Below are positions 17,628-51,948 of a stretch of 64,000 bases of DNA, in pieces. The notes beneath the pieces were generated by a model, which had not been told where the DNA came from, searched no databases, and saw nothing but the letters and a program-made list of their open reading frames with translations. Position 1 is the stretch's first letter. Each line of letters opens with the position of its first letter. Location of the stretch: positions 55,553-119,552 of the forward strand of contig JAIUMI010000007.1 of NCBI GenBank assembly GCA_022565665.1, given 5' to 3'. The translations under genes were made by a program, and so were the position numbers. The stretch is from Glycocaulis sp. (lineage in GTDB: Bacteria > Pseudomonadota > Alphaproteobacteria > Caulobacterales > Maricaulaceae).

Positions 17628-18272
17628 CTATTTCGCGGCGATGTGGACGAGGCTTTCCACATCAATGCGTTCATCGCCACCGCACACGCCGATAATCAGG
17701 GCTTCGTCGCAGCCTTCGCCTACGAGATAGGCGTGGCCCATAGAGCTGTCGAGATAGTAGGATTCCCACTTCTCGAGGACGACCGGGTCATAGAACTCGG
17801 TATGGACCTCGACCCGGCCCTCCAGCACGAAGATGAACTCCTCCCCGCCATGGCGGACCAGATCGCCGAACTCCTCCACCGTGCGCGCACGCACCTTGGT
17901 GAAGATGGGGATCATGCTCTTCTTGCGCAGCTCGGTGCACAGATAGAAATAGTCGTAATTATCGGTTTCCACGCGCATGCCGGTATCCAGCGTGCCCTTG
18001 GCGCGCCGCCCTGTGACGGGGCCAGATGCGGGGGCGCTTTCCTGGCCGGGTACGCTGAACAGGTCTGACAGGGGGATGTTCAGGCGCTGGCTTAGCTGGA
18101 GCAGCTTGTCATAGGTCAGCGTCAGCCGGTCATGCTCGATCTTGGAGAGGGTCGAGAGCGGAATGCCGGAATGCTCGCTCATTTCCTTGAGCGTCCAGCC
18201 ATTGCGCTGGCGAATCGCCCGGATGACCTGACCCAGCGTCGTCTGCGTATCGGCAGCGCCCTTTTTCATCAT
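17628..18272 (-). CDS. XRE-family regulator with C-terminal cupin domain
   Basis: 214 residues. Helix-turn-helix of the XRE type at about residues 13-66 (L-G-Q-V-I-R-A-I-R-Q-R-N-G-W-T-L, then S-G-I-P-L-S-T-L-S-K-I-E), a linker, and a cupin sensor domain from about 125 to 205 (V-R-H-G-G-E-E-F-I-F-V-L-E-G). Such regulators usually sense a small carboxylate or amino-acid-like ligand and control the neighbouring uptake or catabolic operon. It is divergent from the TonB-receptor operon, with a 307-base shared control region that holds repeated GATCAGAAAA motifs. Local control of the 18-28 kb locus is inferred. Confidence 0.9.
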   Translation of the reverse strand: MMKKGAADTQTTLGQVIRAIRQRNGWTLKEMSEHSGIPLSTLSKIEHDRLTLTYDKLLQLSQRLNIPLSDLFSVPGQESAPASGPVTGRRAKGTLDTGMRVETDNYDYFYLCTELRKKSMIPIFTKVRARTVEEFGDLVRHGGEEFIFVLEGRVEVHTEFYDPVVLEKWESYYLDSSMGHAYLVGEGCDEALIIGVCGGDERIDVESLVHIAAK

Positions 18273-18315
18273 GTTTTCCTGACCGGCATACGGCGTAGAT
18301 CCGCAGAACTGACCC

Positions 18316-18335
18316 GATCAGAAAACCGGTTTCTG
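18316..18335. promoter_or_regulatory. Palindrome near the XRE-cupin gene, candidate operator
   Basis: CAGAAA-ACCGG-TTTCTG (18319-18335) is an inverted repeat with 6-bp arms, preceded by GAT so that GATCAGAAAA (18316-18325) recurs at 18438-18447. It lies 44 bases upstream of the regulator gene, a likely autoregulatory position. Confidence 0.45.
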
Positions 18336-18435
18336 CCGGGGCGAGTCACAACGCTAGCCATTAAGGCCGTGCGATGCAAAGCCCCTGAACGATGCGGTTC
18401 GGCATTCATGGCATATCCGCATGGATCATTTTATC

Positions 18436-18473
18436 CTGATCAGAAAATTTCGTTGACATTTCTCTTATCGGGA
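18436..18473 (+). promoter_or_regulatory. Promoter/operator region of the TonB-receptor operon
   Basis: CTGATCAG (18436-18443) begins a second GATCAGAAAA copy; TTGACA (18453-18458) fits a -35 box; ATTTCTCTTATCGG (18458-18471) matches 12 of 14 bases of the palindromic site upstream of the D-aminoacylase gene. No good -10 is obvious. The rest of the gap 18273-18579 shows nothing else. Confidence 0.45.
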
Positions 18474-18579
18474 TGGAGGGTGCCCGGATCGGGATCTGGC
18501 CGGACTCCGTGCGAGCTGGCCGTCGACGGCCGGTGCACGGCGTCACAAAACCATGAACGCAAAGTTCAGGAGGGGAGTT

Positions 18580-20799
18580 ATGAACATGATCAGGCATTCG
18601 CTTCGCGCGGGGCTTCTGGGCACAGCCGCCATGGCACTGTGCGCACCTGCCCTGGCTTTTGAAGATGCAGCGGAGGATGGCACTCAGCCGGCCGCTTCGC
18701 AGGTACGCGATGTTATCTACGTCACCGCGCAAAAGCGCGAAGAGGCCATTACCGACATTCCCGCCTCAATCAGCGTGGTTTCCGGCGAGCGGCTGCAGAA
18801 TATGGGCGTGGGCTCGCTGGCGGATTATGCCGCGTATGTCCCGGGTGTGAATGTGGGCAGCGGAGGCAGCCCCGGTCAGACCTCGATCACACTGCGCGGT
18901 ATTGCGCCGGTAGGGCCTGGTGCCACCGTCAGCACCCATATCGATGATACGCCGCTGGGTGGCAGCTCGAACTACTCGCGCGCATCGGTCTTTGCGCTGG
19001 ACTTGTTTCCGAACGATATCGAGAGGGTCGAAATCCTGCGTGGCCCGCAGGGCACGCTCTATGGGGCGAGCGCGATGGGTGGCCTTCTGCGCTATGTCAC
19101 GCGCACGCCTGATCCGTCCGGCTTCTCGGCGCAGATGGCTGGCGAGATGTTCTCGGTCGCCGATGCCAGCTCGCTGGGCTATGGCGCGCGCGGGCGGGTG
19201 AACGTGCCGCTGGCTGATAATGCCGCATTCAGCGCGAGCCTCTTCACGCGGGAGACGCCGGGCTATGTGGACAATACGCTAACCGGGCGCAGTGATCAGA
19301 ACGAGCTGACCCAGACCGGTGGACGGCTGGCTCTATTCTTCGAGCCCGCCAGCAATTTCACCATCAATCTGTCGGCGATGTTCCAGAACATCGATTCAGC
19401 CGACAATGCTCAGGTCTATCTCGATCCAGCGACGCTCCAGACCTTCGACGGCCCACGCACCACGCGTAATCAGCTAGCCGAGCCGTTTGAGAAGCGGGAG
19501 CGCTATTATGCCGCGCGGCTCAACTGGGATGTCGGCTTTGCCGACTTCACCTCGACCACCAGCCTTTCCAACATCGTGAACAATCAGACGCAGGATGCCA
19601 GCACGATCTATGGCGTGCTGTTCCCGATGTTTACCGGTGGGGCTGTTCCGCCGGGCCTGTCGGAATTCAACATCATTCTCGATCTGGAGAAGTTCACGCA
19701 GGAATTCCGGCTGACGTCAGCCGGCGATGGTCCCTGGCAGTGGATGGCGGGGCTGTTCTACACGCAGGAAGACAGCGTCAACCAGCAGATCGCGACCGCT
19801 CTCGATATGTCGGGGAGCTCGATCCCTGGTCTCGACCCGCTGGCCATTGTGGGACTGCCCAGCAGTTATGAAGAAATCGCCGTGTTCGGCAATATGAGCT
19901 TTGACGTCACCGACCGGCTTACGTTGGGGCTGGGCGGTCGCCTTGCGCGCAACGAGCAGGACTTCGCCCAGATTTCCGATGGCCCGCTGGTTGGCGGTTT
20001 CCAGGAGGTGCCTGGCGATTCCTCTGAGACCGTGTTCACCTACATGGCCAGCGCGACTTTTGATGTAACCGACCAGACCATGCTCTATGGCCGTATCGCC
20101 AGTGGCTACCGTCCTGGCGGCCCCAATGTGGCGCTGCCGGGTGTGCCCCCGCAGGTCGATGCGGACCGGCTGGTAAACTACGAGGTGGGTATCAAGTCGG
20201 ACTTCTGGGATGGCCGTGCGCTCATCGAGGCGACAGCGTTCTGGATTGAGTGGGAAGATATCCAGCTGGCGACCGCTGCGGGCGGGCTGAGCTGGCTGAC
20301 CAATGGGGATACGGCCCGCTCGCGCGGTATCGAATTCCAGGGCGTTGTCGCTCCTGTTGACGGGTTGCGTCTCGGCCTGAACGCAGCCTTCGTGGACTCC
20401 GTTCTTACTGCTGATGCACCTGACCTGTCTGCCGTCAGTGGTGACCGTCTGCCGGGTGTGCCGCGGTATAACTACTCACTGACAGCCGATTATGGCTGGG
20501 GGCTTGAAAACGGCTGGGATGCGAGCGTCGGCGGTGGCATCCGCTGGATTGGTGACCGCAATGTCTCCTATCCCGGCGCTGCCAACTTCATGAAGCTCGA
20601 CAGCTATCACTCCGTTGATCTCAATGCCGAGATAACCAACGGAAGCTGGGCGCTGCGCGGCTATGTGCGCAATCTGACCGATGAGGATGTCTACCTCAGC
20701 GGAACCCGGATGACTGATGCGTTTGGCGCTCCGACCTTCGTAATGAGCTCGTTGCTCCAGCCGCGTACAGTCGGCCTCGTGCTTAGCGTCAGCCGCTAG
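18580..20799 (+). CDS. TonB-dependent outer-membrane receptor
   Basis: 739 residues. Signal peptide to about residue 26 (cleavage after A-L-A), a TonB-box-like stretch I-Y-V-T-A-Q-K-R-E-E, a plug domain (D-I-P-A-S-I-S-V-V; L-R-G-P-Q-G-T-L-Y-G-A-S-A-M-G-G) and a 22-strand-type barrel ending in a V-G-L-V-L-S-V-S-R strand. I chose ATG 18580 because AGGAGGGG lies just upstream. It resembles the Caulobacterales type of receptor importing sugars, peptides or other nutrients rather than only siderophores. First gene of a tight operon with hydrolases and D-glutamate genes, so a D-amino-acid peptide or muropeptide ligand is a reasonable guess. Confidence 0.95.
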   Translation: MNMIRHSLRAGLLGTAAMALCAPALAFEDAAEDGTQPAASQVRDVIYVTAQKREEAITDIPASISVVSGERLQNMGVGSLADYAAYVPGVNVGSGGSPGQTSITLRGIAPVGPGATVSTHIDDTPLGGSSNYSRASVFALDLFPNDIERVEILRGPQGTLYGASAMGGLLRYVTRTPDPSGFSAQMAGEMFSVADASSLGYGARGRVNVPLADNAAFSASLFTRETPGYVDNTLTGRSDQNELTQTGGRLALFFEPASNFTINLSAMFQNIDSADNAQVYLDPATLQTFDGPRTTRNQLAEPFEKRERYYAARLNWDVGFADFTSTTSLSNIVNNQTQDASTIYGVLFPMFTGGAVPPGLSEFNIILDLEKFTQEFRLTSAGDGPWQWMAGLFYTQEDSVNQQIATALDMSGSSIPGLDPLAIVGLPSSYEEIAVFGNMSFDVTDRLTLGLGGRLARNEQDFAQISDGPLVGGFQEVPGDSSETVFTYMASATFDVTDQTMLYGRIASGYRPGGPNVALPGVPPQVDADRLVNYEVGIKSDFWDGRALIEATAFWIEWEDIQLATAAGGLSWLTNGDTARSRGIEFQGVVAPVDGLRLGLNAAFVDSVLTADAPDLSAVSGDRLPGVPRYNYSLTADYGWGLENGWDASVGGGIRWIGDRNVSYPGAANFMKLDSYHSVDLNAEITNGSWALRGYVRNLTDEDVYLSGTRMTDAFGAPTFVMSSLLQPRTVGLVLSVSR

Positions 20800-20831
20800 A
20801 GCGGCCAGTCTCGGACAGGGAAGGAAAAGTG

Positions 20832-22826
20832 ATGGTGAAGGATTGGATGCGGGGCGCATTTGGCGCTCTGCTGGCGGGGTTCACCTTGTCGGCAGCCACG
20901 GCTCAGGTGCCCGAACTGCCTGAAGCCGAGGAAGAGGTGCTGCAATTGCCGGTGCCGGATGCACCAGCGCAGGACAGCGTGCCCGCATCCGGTCCGATTG
21001 ACCCGGCCGATCTCGAAAGCTGGCTGGATGGCTTCATGCCCTACGCGCTGGCCCAGGGTGATCTGGCCGGTGCGGTGGTCACGGTCGTTGCAGACGGGGA
21101 AATCCTGCTCAGCAAGGGTTATGGCTATGCCGATCTGGAAACCCGCGCCCCGGTTGATCCTGACGCCACCCTTTTCCGTCCCGGTTCGGTCTCCAAGCTG
21201 ATCACCTGGACCGCGGTCATGCAGCTGGTCGAGGAAGGGCTTGTTGAACTCGATGCTGACATCAACACCTATCTCGATTTCGAGGTGAACGCGATCGATG
21301 GTCCGGTCACCATCCGTCACATCCTCCATCACACGCCCGGCTGGGGCGAGGCGGTGCGGGGCCTGATCATGGATGATCAGGACAAGCTTCCGTCGCTCAG
21401 CCGGTATGTGCGCGAGAACGTGCCCCCGGCCATGTATCCGGCTGGCGAGGTGCCTGCTTATTCCAACTACGGCACGGCGCTCGCAGGCTATGTGGTCGAG
21501 CGCGTGTCCGGCATGGCCTTCGATGACTATCTCGATCAGCGCATCTTCGCGCCTCTGGGCATGGAGCGGTCGACTCTGCGCCAGCCCTTGCCCGAACATC
21601 TCGAAGCGCTGATGTCCAGTGGCTATATGCGCGCATCCGATGGAGAGGCTCGCCCGTTCGAGATTGTCAGCGCCGCGCCTGCGGGGTCGATGTCATCAAC
21701 CGGCAGTGATATGGGCCGCCTGATGATCGCCTATCTCAATAATGGCGAGGGATTGCTGTCGCCGGAGACGGCGGAGCTCATGTATACGAGCGAGGACCGC
21801 AAGCTGCCCTCCCTCAATTCCATGGTGCTTGGCTTCTATCAGCAAAACCGTAATGGCCACCGTATTATCGGTCATGGCGGTGATACGACCCTCTTCCATT
21901 CCAATCTCCACCTCTATCTCGATCACGGGGTCGGCCTGTACATCTCGATGAACAGCACCGGGCGCGGCGGAGCGACGGGACGTATCCGCCAGGCCCTGTT
22001 CGAGCAGTTCACCGACCGGTATTTCCCGGTGGAACTGGAAGAATTGCCGACGCTGGAGACGGCCGAGGAGCATGGCCGCATGCTGGTTGGCCAGTATCTC
22101 GTCTCGCGCCGCCCGTCAGGCAACTTCCTGGCGTCGAGCTGGCTTCTGAGCCCGGCCAGCGTGACCATGAATGCTGACAACGAGCTGTCGCTTTCCATCC
22201 TGAACGATACCGCCGGTGCGCCGATGCGCTTCCACGAGGTCGAGCCCTTTGTCTGGCAACAGGTTGGTGGCGTTGAACGCCTTTCGGCCCGCATTGGTGA
22301 AGACGGCCGTGTGGAGATGTTCAGCGCAGCCTTCTTCTCGCCCTTCATGGTGTTCATGCCGGTGGAGTGGTGGCGTAATGGCGCCCTGCTTATGCCCTTC
22401 GTGGGTATCGCTGCTGCCGCGCTGTTGCTGACCTTCATCTTCTGGCCCGTGCGCGCAGTTGTGCGCTGGCGCTTCGGCAAGCGCTTCGAACGGTCAGGCC
22501 GGGACGCGATGGCCCACCGTCTGGTGCCGCTCGGGGCGCTGGCAACGCTGATCCATGTCGGCGGCTGGGTCTGGCTCATCACGCATATGATGTCCGATTT
22601 CACCCGGCTGGACGGGCGTATGGACGGCATGCTGCTGCTGCTGCAGTTCCTGTCCGTGCTGCCGCTGGCGGCCCTCGCTATCATGGCGTGGAACACCTTC
22701 GTGGTCTGGACTGGCCGTGCGAGCTGGTTTGCCAGGCTTTGGAGCCTGGTATTGCTGGCGTCCATGCTGGTCATGCTCTGGTTCCTGACCGTTGCCGGCT
22801 TCTTCAATTTCGGCACAAGCTTCTAG
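20832..22826 (+). CDS. Serine hydrolase (beta-lactamase/DD-peptidase fold) with four C-terminal membrane segments
   Basis: 664 residues. Signal peptide to about 25. Hydrolase domain of the class C beta-lactamase/esterase/D-aminopeptidase family: nucleophile S119 in G-S-V-S-K (S-x-x-K), Y210 in A-Y-S-N-Y (Y-x-N), and H-G-G at 348-350 replacing K-T-G. After about residue 510 come four hydrophobic segments (about 515-540, 565-587, 597-623, 632-656), so the enzyme is tied to the inner membrane and faces the periplasm. The family cuts D-amino-acid peptides, amides or esters. ATG 20832 follows AAGGAA; an in-frame GTG three bases before is less likely. Second gene of the operon, 32 bases after the receptor. 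Confidence 0.92.
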   Translation: MVKDWMRGAFGALLAGFTLSAATAQVPELPEAEEEVLQLPVPDAPAQDSVPASGPIDPADLESWLDGFMPYALAQGDLAGAVVTVVADGEILLSKGYGYADLETRAPVDPDATLFRPGSVSKLITWTAVMQLVEEGLVELDADINTYLDFEVNAIDGPVTIRHILHHTPGWGEAVRGLIMDDQDKLPSLSRYVRENVPPAMYPAGEVPAYSNYGTALAGYVVERVSGMAFDDYLDQRIFAPLGMERSTLRQPLPEHLEALMSSGYMRASDGEARPFEIVSAAPAGSMSSTGSDMGRLMIAYLNNGEGLLSPETAELMYTSEDRKLPSLNSMVLGFYQQNRNGHRIIGHGGDTTLFHSNLHLYLDHGVGLYISMNSTGRGGATGRIRQALFEQFTDRYFPVELEELPTLETAEEHGRMLVGQYLVSRRPSGNFLASSWLLSPASVTMNADNELSLSILNDTAGAPMRFHEVEPFVWQQVGGVERLSARIGEDGRVEMFSAAFFSPFMVFMPVEWWRNGALLMPFVGIAAAALLLTFIFWPVRAVVRWRFGKRFERSGRDAMAHRLVPLGALATLIHVGGWVWLITHMMSDFTRLDGRMDGMLLLLQFLSVLPLAALAIMAWNTFVVWTGRASWFARLWSLVLLASMLVMLWFLTVAGFFNFGTSF

Positions 22827-22842
22827 GCGGGGAGGTAGAGAG

Positions 22843-23859
22843 ATGCCTGTTGCCAAGCCGCTTTTCCTGACCGTGCGCATCGAGCCGGTCCGCCTGAAGA
22901 CACCCTTCCGTATCACGGGTCACGTGATGGAGGCGGTCAATCTGGTGGTGTGTACGCTGCAGCGCGGCGGTCATCGCGGGCGCGGCGAGGCAACGGGCGT
23001 CTATTATCATGCCGAAACCGGGGAGAGCATGGCCAGTCAGATCGAGGCTGTCCGTGAACGGATCGAAGCCGGGATCACGCGCGAGGCGCTGCAAGATCTC
23101 CTGCCGCCGGGCGGTGCCCGCAATGCGCTCGATTGCGCGATGTGGGACCTTGAAGCCAGCGAGGCCGGGGAGCCGGTCTGGAAGCTGGCAGGTCTTTCCG
23201 CGCCTTCGCCGCTGCTGACCACCTTCACGCTGGGTGCGGATAGCCCCGATGTGATGGGTAAGAAGGCGGCCGGACTTGGATATGCCAAGGCGCTCAAGCT
23301 CAAGCTGATCGGCGATGGTCTGGATGCGGAGCGTGTGCGGGCCGTGCGGGCCGCTGCGCCTGAAGTCTGGATCGGCGTGGACGCCAATCAGGCGTTCGAC
23401 AGGGCGGGTACGGAAGCGCTTCTGCCATGCCTGATCGAGGAGAATGTGAGTCTTCTCGAACAGCCCTGCGCCATTGGTGCTGATGACAGCCTTTCCGGGC
23501 TCAGTTCGCCCATTCCGCTGGCGGCCGATGAGAGCGCGCAGACCAGCGCCGACATCGCCCGTCTCGCACCCATCTACAACATCATCAATATCAAGCTGGA
23601 CAAGTCAGGCGGTCTCACTGAAGGCCTGAAAATGGCGCATCTGGCGCGCGAGCACGGCCTTGGCGTGATGGTGGGCAATATGGTCGGCACGTCGCTCTCG
23701 TGCGGCCCTGCGGCCATTGTAGGCCAGCTCTGCGACGTGGTGGACCTCGATGGTCCCTGGCATCTGTCGGCGGATCGTGATCCGCCTGCGCGTTATGAAG
23801 ACGGCCATCTTGTCTGCCCGCCGGAGGGCTGGGGCCTGCCGGAAAGGAAAGCCGCCTGA
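22843..23859 (+). CDS. dgcA: Enolase-superfamily racemase: N-acetyl-D-glutamate racemase or dipeptide epimerase
   Basis: 338 residues in the muconate-lactonizing/epimerase branch. Catalytic lysines appear on both faces: K-L-K in L-K-L-K-L-I-G-D-G and the second in N-I-K-L-D-K-S-G-G-L. Metal ligands are in G-V-D-A-N-Q-A-F, L-L-E-Q-P and A-A-D-E-S. L-Ala-D/L-Glu epimerases look the same, but here the gene directly precedes a DUF1611/DgcN gene, the pairing described for the D-glutamate pathway in which DgcN acetylates D-Glu and DgcA racemises N-acetyl-D-Glu. Start ATG 22843 follows GGGGAGG. Its stop overlaps the dgcN start. Confidence 0.88.
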   Translation: MPVAKPLFLTVRIEPVRLKTPFRITGHVMEAVNLVVCTLQRGGHRGRGEATGVYYHAETGESMASQIEAVRERIEAGITREALQDLLPPGGARNALDCAMWDLEASEAGEPVWKLAGLSAPSPLLTTFTLGADSPDVMGKKAAGLGYAKALKLKLIGDGLDAERVRAVRAAAPEVWIGVDANQAFDRAGTEALLPCLIEENVSLLEQPCAIGADDSLSGLSSPIPLAADESAQTSADIARLAPIYNIINIKLDKSGGLTEGLKMAHLAREHGLGVMVGNMVGTSLSCGPAAIVGQLCDVVDLDGPWHLSADRDPPARYEDGHLVCPPEGWGLPERKAA

Positions 23860-24899
23860 TGAGTGTTCTCACCCTCCCTCGGCCCTATCTGCTTTTTCTT
23901 GGCGATGTCACTGACCTGTCCTACGCCAAGACGGCGGCGGGCCTGCGCGACTGGGTGCCTGGCCAGTGCGTGGCGGAATGGTCCCTGCCCGGAAACCCCT
24001 TGCGGCTCGGCCTTCCCGTCATGGCACCGGCAGAGGCTGCCCGCGCAGGCGCCCGCTCGCTGGTTATCGGGGCGGCGACCATGGGCGGGGCCATCCGCCC
24101 GGCCTGGATTCCTGCCCTTGTGGAAGCACTCGAAGCCGGCCTCGACCTCATCTCCGGCATGCACATGCCACTGGCCAGCGTTCCGGAGCTGAAAACCACT
24201 GCGGAGCGCTTGGGCCGGCAACTGATTGATGTGAGAAGACCGCCCGCCGGACTGCCTCTTGCGACCGGGCGCAAGCGCACCGGCAAGCGCCTTCTGACCG
24301 TGGGCACCGATTGTGCGCTGGGCAAGAAATACACCGCGCTCGCCCTGACGCGTGCCTTCGAACAGGCCGGGGTGAACGCGACCTTCCGCGCCACAGGCCA
24401 GACCGGGATACTGATCGCGGGCGGCGGCATCCCCATGGATGCGGTGGTAAGCGATTTTCTGGCTGGAGCGGCCGAGGTGCTCTCGCCGGACGCGCCTGAC
24501 GATCACTGGGACATTATCGAGGGACAGGGCTCGCTGGCGCATCCGTGCTATGCGGGTGTGTCTCTGGGGCTGCTCCATGGTAGCCAGCCGGATGTGCTGG
24601 TGGTCTGCCACGAGGCTGGCCGCAAGCGTGTGATCGGGCTGGATACCCATTATCCGCTGCCCTCTATCGAGGATGTGATCGAGATCAACCTTCTCCATGC
24701 GCGCCGGGTGAACCCCGAGGCAAGGGTGGCCGGGATCAGCCTGAACACGTCGAAGCTATCCGATGAGGAGGCACGCCGCGCCATCGAGACGGAGGCACGG
24801 CGCACGGGCCTTCCTTGCGCCGACCCGATCCGGGGCGGCGCAGCGTTCGAGGCTCTGGTTGATGGTTGCCTGCAGGCCGAAGCCGCTCTGGCCCAATGA
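23859..24899 (+). CDS. dgcN: DUF1611-family D-glutamate N-acetyltransferase, DgcN type
   Basis: 346 residues. An N-terminal Rossmann-like domain (G-D-V-T-D-L-S-Y-A-K-T-A) is followed by a P-loop-like domain with V-G-T-D-C-A-L-G-K-K-Y-T-A, A-T-G-Q-T-G-I-L-I-A-G-G-G, I-E-G-Q-G-S-L-A-H-P and V-V-C-H-E-A-G-R, the conserved DUF1611 blocks. Members have been shown to acetylate D-glutamate; the P-loop is unlike that of normal GNAT enzymes. TGATG overlap with dgcA and ATGA overlap with the permease gene show an operon built for coordinated translation. Confidence 0.9.
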   Translation: MSVLTLPRPYLLFLGDVTDLSYAKTAAGLRDWVPGQCVAEWSLPGNPLRLGLPVMAPAEAARAGARSLVIGAATMGGAIRPAWIPALVEALEAGLDLISGMHMPLASVPELKTTAERLGRQLIDVRRPPAGLPLATGRKRTGKRLLTVGTDCALGKKYTALALTRAFEQAGVNATFRATGQTGILIAGGGIPMDAVVSDFLAGAAEVLSPDAPDDHWDIIEGQGSLAHPCYAGVSLGLLHGSQPDVLVVCHEAGRKRVIGLDTHYPLPSIEDVIEINLLHARRVNPEARVAGISLNTSKLSDEEARRAIETEARRTGLPCADPIRGGAAFEALVDGCLQAEAALAQ

Positions 24900-25993
24900 G
24901 CGCCAGCCCCAGCCTTTTCCGCCGCCTGATCCTGCCGGGCCTTGCCTTCAAGGCGGTCGTGATTGGCGGAGGCTACGCCACGGGCCGCGAGCTGGTCGAG
25001 TATTTCATGCCGTCCGGCCCGGTGGGCGGGTTGCTGGGCCTGTTGCTCGTCACTTTGCTGTGGAGCGCGATCTGCGCGCTCACCTTCTCCTTCGCCCACG
25101 CCACGCGCAGCGGTAATTATCTCGCCTTCTTCAGGGCACTGCTTGGGCCGTTCTGGCCGCTTTTCGAGATAGCCTACCTGCTCTTCCTTTTCCTGATCCT
25201 CGCCGTGTTCGGCGCGGCAGCAGGCGAGATCGGGGCGGCGCTTTTCGGTCTGCCCAACCTGGCGGGCTCGGCGGCGCTGGCGCTCTCCATACTGGTCTTT
25301 ACGGCGCTAGGGCAGGAGAGCGTGGAGGGGCTTTTCAAGTACGCCTCGCTCTTCCTCTATCTGGTCTATCTCGTCTTCGTGGTGCTGTGTTTCACCCAGT
25401 TTGGCGGGGACATTCTCGCCGGTCTTGATGCCGGTATTCCGGCGACGGGATGGGTAGCAGGCGGCATCACCTATGCGGGCTACAACGTCATAGGCGCGGT
25501 GGTGATCCTGCCCGTGCTGCGCCATCTGACGAGCCGCAGGGACGCGGTAATCGCGGGCACGCTTGCCGGGCCGCTGGCCGCGCTTCCGGCCATTGTCTTC
25601 TTTACCTGCATGATCGCCTTCTACCCGGAGATTTCGCAAGCCGCCCTGCCGTCGAACTACATCCTCGAACGCCTCGGCTCGCCGGTCTTCCAGATGGCCT
25701 TCCAGTTCATGGTGTTCGTCGCGCTGGTGGAAACGAGCGTCAGCGCGGTCCATGCCGTCAATGAGCGGATATCGGCCGTGCGGCCCCGCGCCATCGGGAT
25801 ACGCACCCGTCTTGCGGTCACCTCCGTCATACTGCTCGCGGCCATGGTGGTGGCAGACCGGTTCGGCCTGATCGCCCTGATCGCCAATGGCTATCGCCTG
25901 CTGGCCTTCGCGATCATCGCCGTCTTCGTCCTCCCGCTCCTGACACTCGGCGTCTGGAAGCTGACGCGGATGCGCAAGGAGGCGACTGCATGA
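24896..25993 (+). CDS. YkvI-like multi-spanning membrane protein, probable transporter
   Basis: 365 residues with about ten hydrophobic segments. The first segment carries G-G-G-Y-A-T-G-R-E-L-V-E-Y, a broken-helix, glycine-rich pattern like that of LeuT-fold symporters, and the family resembles uncharacterised YkvI proteins. The ATG at 24896 overlaps the dgcN stop (ATGA), so I prefer it over an upstream GTG-type start. Position between dgcN and a periplasmic hydrolase suggests import of the amino acid or peptide product. Substrate not determined. Confidence 0.85.
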   Translation: MSASPSLFRRLILPGLAFKAVVIGGGYATGRELVEYFMPSGPVGGLLGLLLVTLLWSAICALTFSFAHATRSGNYLAFFRALLGPFWPLFEIAYLLFLFLILAVFGAAAGEIGAALFGLPNLAGSAALALSILVFTALGQESVEGLFKYASLFLYLVYLVFVVLCFTQFGGDILAGLDAGIPATGWVAGGITYAGYNVIGAVVILPVLRHLTSRRDAVIAGTLAGPLAALPAIVFFTCMIAFYPEISQAALPSNYILERLGSPVFQMAFQFMVFVALVETSVSAVHAVNERISAVRPRAIGIRTRLAVTSVILLAAMVVADRFGLIALIANGYRLLAFAIIAVFVLPLLTLGVWKLTRMRKEATA

Positions 25994-26985
25994 AACATAT
26001 CCTGGTCGCTGCCGCGCTGGGTGCGGCCTCGTGTGCGGGGCTGCAGACGGGCGTCAGCCATGCCGCCTTGGTGGAAGAGAGTGAAACTGCGGCAATAGAG
26101 GCGCGCATCGCTGCGCTGGCACAAATGGCTGGCGGACGCGTGGGCGTGAGCGCTTTTGCCCTCGAGGGTGGTCCGGCTGTGGGCCTCAACGCCGATGAAG
26201 CCTTCCCCATGGCCAGCACGTTCAAGATCGCCGTGGCCGCAGCCGTTCTGGCGCGGGTGGATGCCGGCGAGCTGTCGCTGGACATGATGGTGGACATTCC
26301 TCAGGAGCGCTATGTGCTCTCCGATGTGATCGCCAACCGGCTGATCCATCCCGGCGTGGCACTGTCGGTCGCCAATCTGATCGAGCTCAACATCACCGAG
26401 AGTGACAACACCGCCGCCGACATGCTGACCGGGCTGGCAGGCGGGCCGCAGGCGGTTACGCAGTGGCTGCGCGCGCAAGGGATTGAGGACCAGCGTGTGG
26501 ACCGTGATACGGCCGGGCTGATCCGTGACTTCTTCGCCCTGCCCGATGGCCCGCTCATCCACACTGTGCCGGCAGCTCTGGAGGCGGACCCGCAGATATT
26601 CCAGCGCGGCCAGCAGCCCAATCCGGACTTCGACACCGACCCGCGCGACACCTCCAGCCCGCGCGCCATGGCCCGCCTGATCGCGCGTATCGCGCAAGGC
26701 GAGGCGCTGAGCGAGGCCAGCACCGGCTTCCTGCTTGCCTCCATGGGGCGCACGCGCACCGGGGCCGGGCGGCTGAGAGGCCTGCTTCCCGGTGGTACGC
26801 AGGTCGCCCACAAGACCGGCACGATCGGAGGCACGGTCAATGATGCCGGGCTTATCACCCTGCCGGATGGGCGGCGAATTGTGGTGGTGGTGTTCGTTAA
26901 GGAAAGCGCCGCGCCCATTGCTGAGCGCGAACGCGCGATAGCGGAAATCACCCGCACCCTGCATGACTGGTTCCTGGTCAGGTAG
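25990..26985 (+). CDS. Class A beta-lactamase-like serine hydrolase lacking the omega-loop glutamate
   Basis: 331 residues with a signal peptide (about 1-25). S-T-F-K at 76-79 (nucleophile S76), S-D-N at 138-140 and K-T-G at 275-277 are the three hallmarks of class A enzymes. The omega-loop does not fit: where class A enzymes have R-x-D-R-W-E-x-x-L-N, this protein reads R-V-D-R-D-T-A-G-L-I (169-178), so the general base Glu166 and Asn170 equivalents are Thr and Ile, and about 30 extra residues follow before R-D-T-S-S-P. It should thus deacylate beta-lactams poorly and may instead be a peptidase or amidase. Overlaps the permease gene by 4 bases; last gene of the operon. Confidence 0.88.
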   Translation: MKHILVAAALGAASCAGLQTGVSHAALVEESETAAIEARIAALAQMAGGRVGVSAFALEGGPAVGLNADEAFPMASTFKIAVAAAVLARVDAGELSLDMMVDIPQERYVLSDVIANRLIHPGVALSVANLIELNITESDNTAADMLTGLAGGPQAVTQWLRAQGIEDQRVDRDTAGLIRDFFALPDGPLIHTVPAALEADPQIFQRGQQPNPDFDTDPRDTSSPRAMARLIARIAQGEALSEASTGFLLASMGRTRTGAGRLRGLLPGGTQVAHKTGTIGGTVNDAGLITLPDGRRIVVVVFVKESAAPIAERERAIAEITRTLHDWFLVR

Positions 26986-27073
26986 GACCGGAAAGCCGCG
27001 CAGCCGGCTGCCGAGAGATCAGTCCACGGCAGGGGGCACGGCTGACAGAGTGCTCCGCCAGCCCGAGCGCTCC

Positions 27074-28633
27074 CTACTCAGCCCCGCTCGCCACTGTTCC
27101 CCGGATCGCGCGGCCGGGCAGGACGGACGGATCCAGCTCGCCTGCATCGACCAGCACCACCCCGTTCACGATCACATAGTCAAAGCCGGTCGTGGTCTGG
27201 GCCGGACGCTCGAAGGTGGCGCGGTCGGAGACGGTTTCAGGGTCGAACACCACAATGTCGGCATCCATGCCCGGCTGGAGCCGGCCCTTGCGGCGCATTT
27301 GCGGCACGGAATCGCTCATGATGCGGGCGGGGTAATAGCTCGCCTTGGCGACCGCTTCGGGCCAGTCGATCACGCCGCGCTCACGCGCATAGATGCGCAG
27401 GAAACGGCCATATGTGCCCGCGCTGCGCGGATGGGAATGGGCATCTTCCGGCAGAGGCCAGACATCGCCCATCAGGCGGTCGCTGCCCAGCGCCCAGGGG
27501 CCGCCGTCAGAGGCAATCGCGCCGCCGGGAAAGAGGATGGAGCGGTCGAGATAGGCCTGATGCTCCGGGCGTTCATCCGGGTTGAGGAAGTGGACGACAA
27601 TGCCGGTGCCGGGCGCGTTCTCCTGCAGATCGTGGAAGCGCGCCTCGTCCAGAGGCTCGCCCTGCACGGTGAAGTCGGAATACTCGATACCGCCCATGCG
27701 CTCGCGCCAGTCAGGCCCGCGGAACATGGCCGCGCCAATGCCGGTCGCGCCCGCGCCATAGGGGTAGGCTTCCACGGTGATGTTGATCCCGCGTGCCTGC
27801 GCCCCTTCGACCATCTCCGCGATACGGTCGATATCGGACAGGCTGATCGAGTTGAGATGGCTGATATGCATGTGGGCGCCGGTCGCGGCGGCCACTGCCA
27901 CCATTTCCTGAAAGCCCTCGAACGAGCTCTGCGGCTCAATGGCGCTTAAAAACCGGGCATGGGTGAAGGTCGGCACATCGCGCGCGGCGGCGAGCGCGTT
28001 GACGGCGTGATATTCGGACCGGCCAATGCCCGGCGCATAGCCCAGCAGAATGCCGATCCCCAGCCCGCCTTCATCAATGCCGGTGCTGATATGGCGCAGG
28101 ATCGCCGACAGGCGCTCATCATCGGCCAGCTCGTTCTGCCAGCGCGGATCGCCGATATAGCGGAAGAACCAGTAGGCATCCGCATCCGGATCCATATCCA
28201 TGATCGCGGCGATGCGCGCATGGGCCCAGCTCGACGCCGCGCCGTAGTTGATCGGACGGCCTTCGGCTTCGGCACGTTCATAGAAGTCTGCCACCGGCAG
28301 CACGCCCGATTCCAGCTCCAGCGCGGTGGTCACGCCATCAAGCGCCTGCACACGCCCGGACAGGATGTTCTGGCCATGGGCATGCAGATCGACAAAGCCC
28401 GGCGCCACGATCCGTCCGCTGACATCCAGTGTGCGGGTGCCGGAAAGCGGTGTTTCGGAGATGGTGACGATCTCATCTCCCCGGATGCCGACATGGCGGA
28501 TCGCGTCCAGCCCGGTTTCGGGGTCGATTACCCGGCCATTATTCAGCGCGATGTCGTAGTCCTGCGCGCAGGCGGCGGTTGACAGTGCGAGTGCGCCCGC
28601 CAGCGCGGCGAGCTTTGCGATCATGCCCTTCAT
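27074..28633 (-). CDS. Secreted D-aminoacylase / N-acyl-D-amino-acid deacylase
   Basis: 519 residues, amidohydrolase superfamily. Signal peptide M-I-A-K-L-A-A-L-A-G-A-L-A-L-S-T-A-A-C, with a cysteine that could be lipidated though the -3 residue is not typical. Metal sites: H-A-H in V-D-L-H-A-H-G-Q-N, H in H-M-H-I-S-H-L, and Asp in A-S-D-G-G-P-W. Releases D-amino acids from N-acyl forms. Start at 28633 follows GGGGAGA; a 33-base longer form is less likely. It is convergent with the receptor operon, ends 88 bases from it, and has a related operator-like palindrome upstream, so I treat it as part of the same locus. Confidence 0.9.
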   Translation of the reverse strand: MKGMIAKLAALAGALALSTAACAQDYDIALNNGRVIDPETGLDAIRHVGIRGDEIVTISETPLSGTRTLDVSGRIVAPGFVDLHAHGQNILSGRVQALDGVTTALELESGVLPVADFYERAEAEGRPINYGAASSWAHARIAAIMDMDPDADAYWFFRYIGDPRWQNELADDERLSAILRHISTGIDEGGLGIGILLGYAPGIGRSEYHAVNALAAARDVPTFTHARFLSAIEPQSSFEGFQEMVAVAAATGAHMHISHLNSISLSDIDRIAEMVEGAQARGINITVEAYPYGAGATGIGAAMFRGPDWRERMGGIEYSDFTVQGEPLDEARFHDLQENAPGTGIVVHFLNPDERPEHQAYLDRSILFPGGAIASDGGPWALGSDRLMGDVWPLPEDAHSHPRSAGTYGRFLRIYARERGVIDWPEAVAKASYYPARIMSDSVPQMRRKGRLQPGMDADIVVFDPETVSDRATFERPAQTTTGFDYVIVNGVVLVDAGELDPSVLPGRAIRGTVASGAE

Positions 28634-28664
28634 GGCCTTGTCTCCCCGTTTTCTTTTTCGGAAC

Positions 28665-28684
28665 ATTTCTCCTATCAGAGAAAT
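28665..28684. promoter_or_regulatory. Perfect palindrome upstream of the D-aminoacylase gene
   Basis: ATTTCTC-CTATCA-GAGAAAT, 7-bp arms, 32 bases upstream of the start codon. Its first 14 bases match 12 of 14 at 18458-18471 in the TonB-receptor control region. Probably a shared operator, perhaps for the XRE-cupin protein. The rest of the 315-base gap up to 28948 shows no gene; an AT-rich stretch precedes asnO. Confidence 0.55.
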
Positions 28685-28948
28685 TTGGCCTTGTCAGGTT
28701 AAGCATGCGCTTGACCGGAAAGCGGATTGCCGCAGGCTCAAAGTGTTCGGTGCAGGAAGCCAAATCCCTGCAATGTCCCGGAAACTAAATCTGGCATGAC
28801 GCGTTGAACGAGGTGTCATAAATCGCCGGTATTGGTGCGGGCTCTTTGCCTTGAACCCCCATGCCATCTGACTACATACTGGTTCCGCCCCGTTGATCGC
28901 GCCTCAGCGCGTCATTTCATTATTCCATTTTTCAAGGAGATTGCGCGC

Positions 28949-30721
28949 ATGTGCGGCATTGCCGGTGAATTACGCTTTGATGATCAGTTGCCGGACATTT
29001 CCGTGCTTCAGCGCGTGACCGACGCGATGCGTGCGCGCGGACCCGATGCAGGCGGCTTTCATGCGCAGGGGCGCCAGGCGTTTGGCCATCGCCGCCTGAA
29101 GATCATCGACCTCACCGATGCCGCCCAGCAGCCCATGGTGGATGCCGAGCTGGGCCTCGCCATCGTGTTCAATGGCTGCATCTATAATCATAAGGAGCTG
29201 CGCGCCGAGCTGGAGGGCAAGGGCTATCGCTTCTTCTCCGATGGCGACACCGAGGTCATCCTGAAGGCCTATCACGCCTGGGGTGAGGATTTCGTCCACC
29301 GCCTCAATGGCATGTTCGCCTTTGCCATCACCCACCGCGATAGCGGAGAGGTGCTGATCGGGCGCGACCGGCTGGGGATCAAGCCGCTCTATTACAGCGA
29401 GGGAAAGGGCTTCTTCCGCTTCGCCTCCAGCCTCCCGGCCTTGCTGGCATACAAGGATATTGACCGCTCCATCGATCCGGTAGCGCTCAATTTCTACTTC
29501 TCCTTCCACGCCGTCGTGCCGGCTCCATGGACGATGGTGAAGGGGGTGCGCAAGCTGCCGCCGGCGACGCTGATGCGCATCGCCCCGGACGGCAAGCGCA
29601 CCGAGCGGCACTATTGGGACGTGCCCTTCGGCCCGCGCCCCGGGGAACAGTCCCTGAATGCTGCGGAGTGGAAGGAGCGTGTCGCCGATGCGCTGCGTCT
29701 CGCCGTCAAGCGCCGCCTTGTGGCCGATGTGCCGGTGGGTGTGCTGCTCTCTGGCGGGCTGGATTCATCGCTGATCGTGGGCCTGCTGGCCGAGGCCGGG
29801 CAGACGGGGCTGAAAACCTTCTCCATCGGCTTTGACAGCGTGGGCGAGGAGAAGGGTGACGAATTTCAGTATTCGGACATTATCGCCGAGCGCTTTGCCA
29901 CCGATCACCACAAGATCCAGATCGACACCGCCAGAGCCCTGCCTGCGCTGGACCGCGCCATCGCCGCGATGAGCGAGCCGATGACCAGTCATGACTGTGT
30001 CGGCTTCTACCTGTTGTCCGAAGAGGTCTCCAAACAGGTGAAAGTGGTCCAGTCCGGTCAGGGGGCGGACGAGATTTTCGCCGGCTATCACTGGTATCCG
30101 CCCATGCTGGAAACCGATGATGCGCTCAGCACTTACGCGAAGGCATTCTTCGACCGGGACCGGGCGGAGATGGGCGAGCTTCTGCAGGACGCCTGGCTGA
30201 ACGGGGACACGGCGCGTGATTTTGTTGCCCAGCACTTTGCCCGTCCGGGTGCGGACCGGCCCATCGACAAGGCGCTTCGGATCGATACCGAGATCATGCT
30301 GATCGACGATCCGGTCAAGCGCGTGGACAACATGACCATGGCCTGGGGGCTGGAGGCACGCGTGCCCTTCCTCGACTATGAGGTGGTGGAACTGGCTGCG
30401 CGCGTGCCGGCCGAGCTGAAGACCGGGCAGGACGGCAAGGGTATCCTGAAAGATGTCGGCCGCGATGTGATCCCGCACGAGGTGATCGACCGGCCCAAGG
30501 GCTATTTCCCTGTTCCGGCGCTGAAATATCTGCGCGGCCCCTATCTGGACAAGGTACGCGACGCCGTGAAGGGCGAGCGGTTTGCAGGCAAGGGCATTGT
30601 CCGGCAGGATTATGTCGACCGCCTTCTGACCGATCCGGAAGCGCATATCACGCCGCTGCGTGGCTCCAAGCTCTACCAGATCGGACTTCTGGCCATGTGG
30701 CTGGAGACCCACGGGCTCTAA
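28949..30721 (+). CDS. asnO: N-acetylglutaminylglutamine amidotransferase (asparagine-synthase-like)
   Basis: 590 residues. Class II glutamine amidotransferase domain with catalytic Cys2 (M-C-G-I-A-G-E), then an ATP-pyrophosphatase domain with S-G-G-L-D-S-S at 268-274. The start must expose Cys2, so ATG 28949, with AAGGAGA 8 bases before it, is right. In the NAGGN (N-acetylglutaminylglutamine amide) osmolyte pathway this enzyme makes the terminal amide. The next two genes are the other known members of that cluster, which separates it from true AsnB. Confidence 0.94.
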   Translation: MCGIAGELRFDDQLPDISVLQRVTDAMRARGPDAGGFHAQGRQAFGHRRLKIIDLTDAAQQPMVDAELGLAIVFNGCIYNHKELRAELEGKGYRFFSDGDTEVILKAYHAWGEDFVHRLNGMFAFAITHRDSGEVLIGRDRLGIKPLYYSEGKGFFRFASSLPALLAYKDIDRSIDPVALNFYFSFHAVVPAPWTMVKGVRKLPPATLMRIAPDGKRTERHYWDVPFGPRPGEQSLNAAEWKERVADALRLAVKRRLVADVPVGVLLSGGLDSSLIVGLLAEAGQTGLKTFSIGFDSVGEEKGDEFQYSDIIAERFATDHHKIQIDTARALPALDRAIAAMSEPMTSHDCVGFYLLSEEVSKQVKVVQSGQGADEIFAGYHWYPPMLETDDALSTYAKAFFDRDRAEMGELLQDAWLNGDTARDFVAQHFARPGADRPIDKALRIDTEIMLIDDPVKRVDNMTMAWGLEARVPFLDYEVVELAARVPAELKTGQDGKGILKDVGRDVIPHEVIDRPKGYFPVPALKYLRGPYLDKVRDAVKGERFAGKGIVRQDYVDRLLTDPEAHITPLRGSKLYQIGLLAMWLETHGL

Positions 30722-30745
30722 TCGCTCTGAACGGGAGCTCAGATA

Positions 30746-32521
30746 ATGACCACTGTTCGCCGCCCCGGACGCGCCCGCGCCGTTGGCCACCGTCTGCGGC
30801 GCATGCGCGACCAGTCCATGAAGGCGCCCATCACCCATGGCGAGGGCATAGACGCGCAGGCCGGGCCGACCGAGAATGCCGTGCTGGAATGCGGCTGGGG
30901 CAGGCTGGCCTTCGCGCAGACCTTCACGACCGCCGAAGCGCTGGTGGAAACCCTGCGCGGCGAGGCGAGCGAGCAGCGCGATATCGGGTTCTACATCCGT
31001 GATCCCCACGTCGTGCTGGCGGCAGCCCCGCAGGAAGTGTTTCTTGACCCGTCCCACACCTACCGGCTGGATCTGGCGACCTACCGGGCGCGCCGTCAGA
31101 AGGGGCAGAGCGGCTATGTGGTGCGCCGCTTGTGCTCGGAGGCCGATGCCAAGGCGGTGAACCGCATCTACCGCGCACGCGGCATGGTGCCGGTTGATCC
31201 GGCGTTCTTCTGGCATCAGCGCGACAGCCGTACACTGACATTCCTTGTCGCCGAGCATGGCGAGACCGGCGAAATCATCGGTGCCGTCACCGGCGTGGAT
31301 CACGCCCGCGCCTTTAGCGATCCGGAAAACGGGTCTTCGCTCTGGTGCCTTGCGGTGGACCCGCGTACCGCCCTGCCGGGCATTGGTGAGGCGCTGGTGC
31401 GCCGTCTGGCCGAGCTATTCCAGGCGCGCGGGGCGGCCTATATGGATCTCTCCGTTCTGCACGACAACACGCAGGCCATAGCGCTCTACGAGAAGCTGGG
31501 CTTTACGCGCGTCCCCTTCTTCACGCTCAAACGCAAGAACACGATAAATGAGAAGCTCTTCATCGGCCCTCCGCCGGAAGAGGAGCTGAACCCCTATGCC
31601 CGCATCATCGTGGACGAGGCGCGCCGGCGCGGTATCGGCGTGGAAGTGCTCGACGCCGAAGGCGGCTTTTTCCGTCTGAACTGGGGCGGGCGCTCTGTCA
31701 TCTGCCGGGAGTCGCTTTCCGAGCTGACCAGCGCGGTGGCGATGAGCCGGTGTGACGACAAGGCGGTGACCCGCCGCCTTATGGAGCGGGCCGGTGTGCC
31801 TGTGCCGCGCCAGCTCGCCGCAAGTGCCAGCGAAGCCGAACGCGCGGCCTTCCTGGCCGAATGCGGCTCGGTCGTCGTCAAGCCTGCACGCGGTGAACAG
31901 GGACGCGGCGTGGTGGTCGGCATTGAGACGGCTGAAGAGCTGGATGCGGCGGTGGAATACGCCGCGCGCGTGAACCCGGATGTGATCATCGAGGAATGCG
32001 TGACAGGCGATGACCTGCGTGTGCTGGTGATCAATGACGAGGTCGTGGCCGCGGCCCTGCGCAAGCCCCCGGAGATCACGGGCGACGGCGCGCAGACCGT
32101 GCGCCGCCTGATCGAGCGGTTGTCGCGCCGCCGGGAAGCGGCAACAGGCGGAGAATCGCGCATTCCGCTGGACGAGGAGACAGCGCGCTGTGTCCGCGCG
32201 AACGGTTATGAGCTGGATGATGCCTTGCCACGCGGTATGACCATCCGTGTGCGGCGCACGGCCAATCTGCATACCGGCGGCACGCTGCACGATGTCACCG
32301 CGACGCTGCACGCCGACATTGCGGCGAGCGCGCTAAAGGCAGCCAGAGCCATTGATATTCCGGTTTCGGGCATGGACTTTATCGTGCAGGATCCGGCAGG
32401 GCCTGATCATGTCTTCATCGAAGCCAATGAGCGCCCGGGTCTTGCCAATCACGAACCCCAGCCGACGGCGGAGCGCTTTGTGGATCTGCTCTTCCCGCTT
32501 TCTGCGGCCCGCCCGGACTGA
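30746..32521 (+). CDS. ngg: N-acetylglutaminylglutamine synthetase (GNAT + ATP-grasp fusion)
   Basis: 591 residues. A GNAT acetyltransferase module at about 125-255 (W-C-L-A-V-D-P-R-T-A-L-P-G-I-G; D-N-T-Q-A-I-A-L-Y-E-K-L-G-F) is fused to an ATP-grasp ligase from about 300 to the end (V-V-V-K-P-A-R-G-E-Q-G-R-G-V-V-V-G; F-I-E-A-N-E-R-P-G-L). The layout fits acetylation followed by peptide bond formation to yield N-acetyl-Gln-Gln. 24 bases after asnO, 8 bases before the peptidase. Confidence 0.94.
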   Translation: MTTVRRPGRARAVGHRLRRMRDQSMKAPITHGEGIDAQAGPTENAVLECGWGRLAFAQTFTTAEALVETLRGEASEQRDIGFYIRDPHVVLAAAPQEVFLDPSHTYRLDLATYRARRQKGQSGYVVRRLCSEADAKAVNRIYRARGMVPVDPAFFWHQRDSRTLTFLVAEHGETGEIIGAVTGVDHARAFSDPENGSSLWCLAVDPRTALPGIGEALVRRLAELFQARGAAYMDLSVLHDNTQAIALYEKLGFTRVPFFTLKRKNTINEKLFIGPPPEEELNPYARIIVDEARRRGIGVEVLDAEGGFFRLNWGGRSVICRESLSELTSAVAMSRCDDKAVTRRLMERAGVPVPRQLAASASEAERAAFLAECGSVVVKPARGEQGRGVVVGIETAEELDAAVEYAARVNPDVIIEECVTGDDLRVLVINDEVVAAALRKPPEITGDGAQTVRRLIERLSRRREAATGGESRIPLDEETARCVRANGYELDDALPRGMTIRVRRTANLHTGGTLHDVTATLHADIAASALKAARAIDIPVSGMDFIVQDPAGPDHVFIEANERPGLANHEPQPTAERFVDLLFPLSAARPD

Positions 32522-32529
32522 CAAGGATC

Positions 32530-50393: not shown

Positions 50394-50472
50394 GGCGATC
50401 TCTCCGGTGGCGTGGGTGGGGGCGTCGAGGGCCTTATCTACGCTCCGGGGGAGAGAGGGGCAAGGATGGGGG

Positions 50473-51873: not shown

Positions 51874-51948
51874 GTAAATCTCCGAGATCGTAGCGGTGCA
51901 GCTGCATTAAGATGCGATTCTTGAATTGAAGCTTGAAAGCGCTGTCCC

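Follow-up and report, generated by a model that had tools for sequence, protein, structure and literature searches.

An eight-gene block in a Glycocaulis sp. genome (2.74 Mb, 31 contigs) is probably a regulon, inducible by its substrate, that lets the cell feed on peptides containing D-glutamate; these would most likely be stem-peptide fragments of the peptidoglycan of other cells. The block lies in a 64,000-nucleotide stretch of contig JAIUMI010000007.1 (assembly GCA_022565665.1, positions 55,553 to 119,552), hereafter the window, and consists of six tightly packed rightward genes between a divergent XRE-cupin regulator gene and a convergent D-aminoacylase-like gene. Recurrence of the same genes in relatives, together with a common operator, indicates more than a chance assembly. 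In the model that we infer, the TonB-dependent receptor would carry the peptide over the outer membrane. Periplasmic trimming would fall to the membrane-tied PF00144 hydrolase and the class A-fold hydrolase, joined by the D-aminoacylase-type enzyme and by two PF00144 proteins encoded as an unlinked pair. The permease would then move D-glutamate or a small D-glutamate product into the cytoplasm, where DgcN would acetylate D-glutamate and DgcA would invert the product to N-acetyl-L-glutamate; alternatively, the DgcA step may be the epimerization of L-Ala-D-Glu. The XRE-cupin protein would repress its own gene and two operons via the operator until a pathway metabolite, held in its cupin domain, ended repression. 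Family resemblance suggests D-glutamate as the substrate, and peptidoglycan is its likely source because D-glutamate is a fixed part of peptidoglycan stems.

The eight block proteins were searched against Pfam and NCBIfam profiles with reporting at E 0.001; signal peptides were judged by eye at the N termini, and hydrophobic segments were called by simple hydropathy rather than by a topology predictor. The six plus-strand genes are separated by gaps of 29 and 16 bases and then overlap by 1, 4, and 4 bases, just as the original prediction had described them (gaps of at most 32 bases, mostly overlapping). They encode a TonB-dependent outer-membrane receptor (PF00593, PF07715; start at 18580 or 18586, end at 20799), a PF00144 serine hydrolase (20829–22826), a DgcA-like enolase-superfamily racemase/epimerase with no signal peptide by eye (22843–23859), a predicted DgcN-like D-glutamate N-acetyltransferase of the DUF1611 family (23859–24899), an inner-membrane permease with approximately 9–11 hydrophobic segments (24896–25993), and a probably exported class A beta-lactamase-fold hydrolase (25990–26985). 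The convergent minus-strand gene, encoding a probably exported amidohydrolase of the D-aminoacylase/N-acyl-D-glutamate deacylase type (27074–28666), is also where it was expected, except that its open reading frame (ORF) starts at 28666 and not at 28684.

Relatives were compared at several taxonomic depths. The genus set comprised the window's genome and the genomes G044, G063, and G083 (loci: the window, L111, L112, and L113), whereas the order sample comprised 150 genomes, 39 of them with a DgcN match, of which 19 were examined as 20 regions. The wider set consisted of the best 80 loci in a ranking by closeness of DgcN, a cap that tilts it toward the window's DgcN subtype; 62 of these span at least 20 kb, and they derive from sphingomonads, xanthomonads, Steroidobacter relatives, Caulobacterales kin, and many metagenome-assembled genomes (MAGs). 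Operator counts cover 81 loci, namely the wider set plus the window. The nearest DgcN relatives are from Glycocaulis albus (88%) and an Oceanicaulis MAG, L003 (83%). L001 was excluded from neighborhood clustering. Duplicates (L112 of the L002 contig, L114 of L004, and L115 of L017) and sequences with internal stops (L054 for DgcA; L033 and L118 for DgcN) were removed from residue alignments, which reduced DgcA from 79 to 75 sequences, DgcN from 101 to 96, PF00144 from 65 to 62, class A from 11 to 10, D-aminoacylase from 17 to 14, and XRE from 47 to 45, with the upstream regions of the regulator likewise reduced from 47 to 45.

The regulator gene (17628–18272, minus strand) encodes a helix-turn-helix domain (PF12844/PF01381) and a cupin match below the Pfam cut-off. 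Aligning the DNA upstream of it in the genus relatives and L003 uncovered a conserved block, whose 14-base operator core is TTNTCYRATCAGGA; an earlier, longer operator guess with a good fit in just some six loci was dropped and this core took its place. The core has its one exact copy in the 2.74 Mb genome at 18434–18447 (minus strand). Two operator-like boxes with two mismatches each accompany it: one near the regulator start (18312–18325, minus strand) and an inverted one (18460–18473, plus strand) just 3' of a TTGACA at 18453–18458, the block around the latter being kept in the genus relatives and L003. The regulator is predicted to bind these boxes within 18273–18579. Many sphingomonad and xanthomonad loci place the core directly after TTGACA, inside the expected promoter spacer, which would suit repression.

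Across the 45 aligned upstream regions of the regulator, the core occurs exactly in 24, with at most one mismatch in 36, and with at most two in 42, compared with Markov background means of 0, 0, and 1.05 per 45. Since the core was picked from the same 45 regions, sites elsewhere constitute the more independent evidence. At up to one mismatch there are 77 sites across the 81 loci, located in 49 of them, whereas 20 shuffled motifs gave 0–3 sites apiece. Near the starts (approximate ORF starts) of regulator, PF00144, M19, TonB, dgcN, dgcA, or class A genes lie 73 of the 77, including two ahead of the class A gene in L071. Of the 42 loci that have a close regulator (200 bits), 39 hold a site, versus 9 of the 38 that lack one; co-occurrence and position suggest that this regulator acts on this operator. 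Each of G044, G063, and G083 carries the exact core twice, once at this locus and once ahead of two adjacent PF00144 genes elsewhere, at 80–83 bases from site start to gene start, and the reversed pattern has zero exact matches in these three genomes. The Oceanicaulis MAG L003 has the PF00144 pair adjoining the locus, with an exact operator, and the single exact match in G133 sits within an unrelated ORF. One operator is therefore common to the locus and a second, unlinked operon, and the co-regulation of the block is well supported—an outcome on which the original prediction had staked its reading and which computation bears out.

Conservation of the block is likewise well supported. A DgcN match was found in 39 of the 150 order genomes and in 51 of 190 class genomes; the four genus genomes are in the order sample with a match, and no genus genome is among the misses listed (all but 91). 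All four keep the regulator, the PF00144 hydrolase, DgcA, DgcN, the permease, and the D-aminoacylase-like gene. Outside the genus the block is looser, with a regulator match of at least 200 bits in one of 17 order regions (L114; 16 genomes). Among the 62 loci of at least 20 kb, we recovered the regulator in 45 (at 140 bits), a similar TonB receptor in 33, the PF00144 hydrolase in 52, DgcA in 53, and the permease in 41 (51 across all 80 loci); 42 hold five or more of the six. De novo clustering of the 80 loci, with families named by Pfam from one representative each, further identified as recurrent neighbors a second PF00144 type (44 loci), D-aminoacylase-kind amidohydrolases (39), M19 dipeptidases (31), POT peptide transporters (22), and PF01979 amidohydrolases (16); PF07969 hydrolases also occur near dgcN loci (one representative). 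One clustered family, F15, was rejected as an antisense shadow of dgcA. POT transporters co-occur with the permease in 13 loci and are found without it in nine. The seven-gene conservation anticipated by the original prediction thus stands for a widely recurring core and not for a fixed unit, since the class A gene is optional, the receptor differs in L113, and the closest D-aminoacylase type (above 580 bits) was seen only in loci of the same order. Overall, the gene block itself is confirmed, and its earlier interpretation as a scavenging locus is partly supported.

The same neighbors bear on whether the block serves the use of poly-gamma-glutamate, a substrate that the original prediction had also entertained. 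Poly-gamma-D-glutamate would free D-glutamate, but the eight block proteins include no gamma-poly-glutamate hydrolase or gamma-glutamyl transpeptidase family, and the partners that keep recurring are of the dipeptidase and PF00144 kinds. We therefore regard this substrate as very improbable.

The cytoplasmic end of the proposed route rests on the two Dgc proteins. The DgcN-like protein contains both DUF1611 domains (PF17396, 82.8 bits; PF07755, 248.1 bits) and matches PDB entry 7xrj at 348 bits; this family resemblance is what suggests D-glutamate N-acetyltransferase activity. The DgcA-like gene is the one place in the window's genome where PF13378 scores above its cut-off, and the structural relatives of its product are 4gfi and 1jpd. 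The catalytic residues of the enolase superfamily (KxK, three metal-binding acids, and a second lysine) are kept in 75 of 75 DgcA relatives. So is a DxD motif (six of these sequences coming from L115–L130), which 1jpd and 4gfi share and which in L-Ala-D/L-Glu epimerases presumably holds the free amino group of the dipeptide. Because canonical-type relatives keep the motif too, it cannot separate racemization of N-acetyl-D-glutamate from epimerization of L-Ala-D-Glu, and an L-Ala-D/L-Glu epimerase is just as plausible an identity for DgcA. The likeness to the epimerase 1jpd extends to a match of 197 bits and to KxK, D, E, D, K, and DxD; E. coli YcjG is an enzyme of this activity. In contrast, DgcA fits NF042940 better than the L-Ala-D/L-Glu epimerase profile PRK15129 (363.8 versus 230.8 bits), and its score on the latter falls below the cut-off of 343.

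A housekeeping alternative is that the block salvages stem peptides which the growing cell sheds from its own peptidoglycan into the periplasm. Such recycling would call for the same D-glutamate, L,D-dipeptide, and D-peptidase chemistry, and the DxD-bearing DgcA resembles the epimerase 1jpd. A TonB receptor under the same operator, however, suggests import from outside, and the locus is patchy (the 39 of 150 order genomes with DgcN), unlike a housekeeping route. Recycling of own peptidoglycan consequently appears unlikely, and feeding on peptides from other cells remains our preferred explanation.

The TonB receptor, preceded by a Shine-Dalgarno-like AGGAGG at 18568–18573, is 57–81% identical in L002, L003, L004, and L111. 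It is close in three of the four genus genomes; in L113 (position 4167) a 27% relative occupies its place while the remaining block is kept, and such a swap may alter the peptide imported. Separately, five genomes have the same leader ahead of the receptor (ATGAACGCAAAGTTCAGGAGGGGAG, 18553–18586), which some of them keep in frame and others end with a stop and which perhaps encodes a leader peptide.

Among the hydrolases, the PF00144 protein has a signal-like N-terminal segment by eye, four hydrophobic segments past residue 500, and the motifs SVSK, YSN, and HGG. Its aligned relatives keep SxSK and YSN in 62 of 62 sequences, with HGG, HAG, or HLG as the third motif, and at least two hydrophobic segments past residue 400 are found in 64 of 65 proteins (three duplicates included). 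Four PDB entries match it at E 1e-20, the alkaline D-peptidase 4y7p among them. The D-aminoacylase-like protein scores 684.5 bits against NF006560 (cut-off 340) and matches D-aminoacylase and N-acyl-D-glutamate deacylase over its whole length (1v4y, residues 34–505, E 7.4e-28; 3gip, E 1e-24).

The class A-fold protein exceeds the cut-off of the class A beta-lactamase profile NF033103 (233.1 versus 200 bits), and its relatives keep the SxxK, SDN, and KTG signature as STFK, SDN, and KTG in 10 of 10 sequences. The omega loop departs from the class. In place of its ExxLN motif (Glu166 and Asn170), all ten aligned sequences have D-T at positions 165–166 and I, L, or V at 170, and in a nine-sequence alignment no glutamate from residue 141 to residue 230 is invariant. 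Relative to 4c6y, approximately 33 extra residues in the omega region split two matched stretches. The gene is optional: the window and L111 have it and L112 and L113 show no match (two of four genus genomes), and it occurs in eight of the 80 wider loci at varying positions (L034, L059, L060, and L071). One could suppose that these class C- and class A-type hydrolases defend against or catabolize beta-lactams, as the NF033103 score and the assignment of the other hydrolase to the PF00144 beta-lactamase family would allow. Yet the threonine at the Glu166 position, the aliphatic residue at the Asn170 position, and the optional status of the gene all speak against a beta-lactam role, which moreover leaves no place for DgcA, DgcN, or the receptor; we hold it to be highly unlikely. 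Given the absence of Glu166 and the precedent of PBP-A (penicillin-binding protein A) described below, the sequence makes a peptidase the likelier identity for this protein than a resistance enzyme.

Several observations weigh against a regulon for D-glutamate-peptide feeding. The DgcN-like protein scores 445.5 bits against the equivalog profile NF041892, below the cut-off of 480; that cut-off may be strict, as seven of seven scanned DgcN relatives, four of them canonical-type, also fall below it (441–469 bits). The DgcA-like protein scores 363.8 bits against the equivalog NF042940, below its cut-off of 400; two locus-type relatives score 377.7 (L013) and 369.6 (L064), and the sole canonical-type DgcA scanned, from L126, scores 424.4, so that the window's protein looks like a sister subtype of canonical DgcA. 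No Pfam or NCBIfam profile matches the permease at the reporting threshold, and its label "YkvI-like" is provisional. In these respects the gene kinds originally predicted need qualification, and otherwise they agree with the families found. For the step beyond N-acetyl-L-glutamate, the window's genome has no ArgJ match, the family being detected in 10 of 14 control genomes, and Pfam finds no amidase or muramidase family among the eight block proteins. PF00144, the TonB receptors, and the amidohydrolases are wide families with no specificity for D-glutamate. On the regulatory side, the operator is absent at up to one mismatch from 32 of 81 loci, and the co-occurrence of regulator and operator (Fisher p 9e-11) is uncorrected for kinship. 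In the window's own genome, the operator before the orthologous PF00144 pair (G000:C1, approximately 470737–473444) sits at the same place as in those three genomes but carries one mismatch and is one of 12 one-mismatch copies, versus four for the reversed pattern; the sole clustered-family neighbor of the other 11 is a TonB receptor-like gene about 1.5 kb off (L151). Finally, in 10 of the 62 full-length loci just one or two core genes of the six are present.

The surroundings of the block were examined as well. To its left lie obg and a GNAT gene (both by eye), an L21 gene (228 residues), and a tRNA-Ser. PF00144 matches fall in ten places in the window's genome, including the locus's own, plus two rows inside the class A gene. 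To the right, 28925–33714 holds a complete trio for the osmolyte N-acetylglutaminylglutamine amide (NAGGN): an amidotransferase (TIGR03104), a synthetase (TIGR03103), and an M42 peptidase (TIGR03106). We rejected these as members of the unit, for they have no match at E 1e-20 in L002, L003, L004, L111, or L113, regions that end at differing distances and may have more distant copies. Farther off, the stretch 50001–52659 is low in GC content (0.484 in 50001–52000 versus 0.60–0.68 in other bins) and may be a recent insertion; it holds a 466-residue ORF (50473–51873) with a weak, sub-threshold HEPN_RiboL-PSP match and a 250-residue ORF with no Pfam match.

Peptides that carry D-glutamate come mostly from bacteria and form a nitrogen pool that degrades slowly. 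The DgcN-DgcA route explains the use of free D-glutamate, and the regulon supplies candidates for the transporters, peptidases, and sensor that would handle the bound form; its operator enables a direct test, and the locus may be a case of beta-lactamase-fold enzymes put to nutritional use. No description of the block or the operator was recognized among the literature matches listed, from which subscription journals are largely absent, and the matches on YkvI, on XRE-cupin proteins with D-amino acids, and on Glu166-less class A proteins in Sphingomonas held nothing on the locus; the aldose 1-epimerase fusion in the excerpted text of PMC9143381 has no bearing on it. We give even odds to a broader proposition: that the XRE-cupin regulon, with its defined operator, is hitherto undescribed and makes D-glutamate-peptide feeding a portable trait of Alpha- and Gammaproteobacteria by coupling a TonB receptor, several stereospecific penicillin-binding-protein-like peptidases (one a Glu166-less class A-fold enzyme serving nutrition and not resistance), a new type of permease for D-glutamate or D-glutamate peptides, and the DgcN-DgcA exit route.

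Among known systems, PBP-A offers the closest parallel to the class A-fold protein. Excerpts of PMC11189452 present it as a cyanobacterial DD-peptidase near class A beta-lactamases that acts on peptidoglycan peptides and likewise does without the catalytic omega-loop glutamate. It differs in belonging to another lineage, and the window's protein has an omega insertion relative to 4c6y.

The mlr microcystin cluster raises the question of whether the substrate comprises other D-amino-acid peptides, whether like the microcystins of cyanobacteria or otherwise nonribosomal, or N-acyl-D-amino acids. We read positions 8814–17207 of L144 as the mlr cluster of Sphingosinicella microcystinivorans, its genes named by order, size, and family and mlrA itself not pinpointed. 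Four of its gene kinds have relatives in dgcN loci: a POT transporter at the MlrD position (45%), an M19-type dipeptidase at the MlrE position (47%), a D-aminoacylase (33%), and a PF00144 protein (31%). Against such substrates, Pfam finds neither MlrC of family M81 (PF07364/PF07171) nor a CAAX-protease, the type to which MlrA presumably belongs, among the eight block proteins, and L144 has no operator copy with one mismatch or fewer. Furthermore, relatives of MlrD and MlrE are about equally close in G164, a genome of the class sample without a DgcN match, where an MlrE-like protein (49%) lies about 4 kb from an MlrD-like one (38%) and a second MlrD-like protein (43%) is found elsewhere, compared with 47% (MlrE) and 45% (MlrD) for the dgcN-locus copies. 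An mlr-derived origin of the locus was rejected on these comparisons, and we consider such substrates unlikely and peptidoglycan fragments the better candidate. As far as the excerpted sources go (PMC6256522, PMC6563193, PMC10467064), what the two systems share is the PF00144, dipeptidase, D-aminoacylase-type, and POT kinds, found in the wider dgcN loci, and a D-glutamate peptide as substrate, microcystin containing D-glutamate (PMC10467064). They differ in that the window block is without MlrC/M81, the mlr region is without the operator, and its genes show no special closeness to the dgc-locus copies.

The DgcN-DgcA pathway of D-glutamate catabolism, reportedly described by Yu et al. in 2023 (ISME J 17:537), is the nearest relative of the whole. 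The excerpted texts of PMC10845958 and PMC11747546 treat it as known, and that of PMC12363236 cites Yu et al. 2023 for it. The window resembles it in the adjacency of both families and in the expected chemistry, from D-glutamate through N-acetyl-D-glutamate to N-acetyl-L-glutamate. It differs in the DgcA subtype, which scores 364–378 bits in three locus proteins versus 424 for the canonical-type L126 protein at a cut-off of 400, and in setting the pair within a TonB, hydrolase, and permease block with an XRE-cupin regulon. The locus is thus best described as a TonB-linked catabolic regulon built around the known DgcN-DgcA route, with the operator new here.

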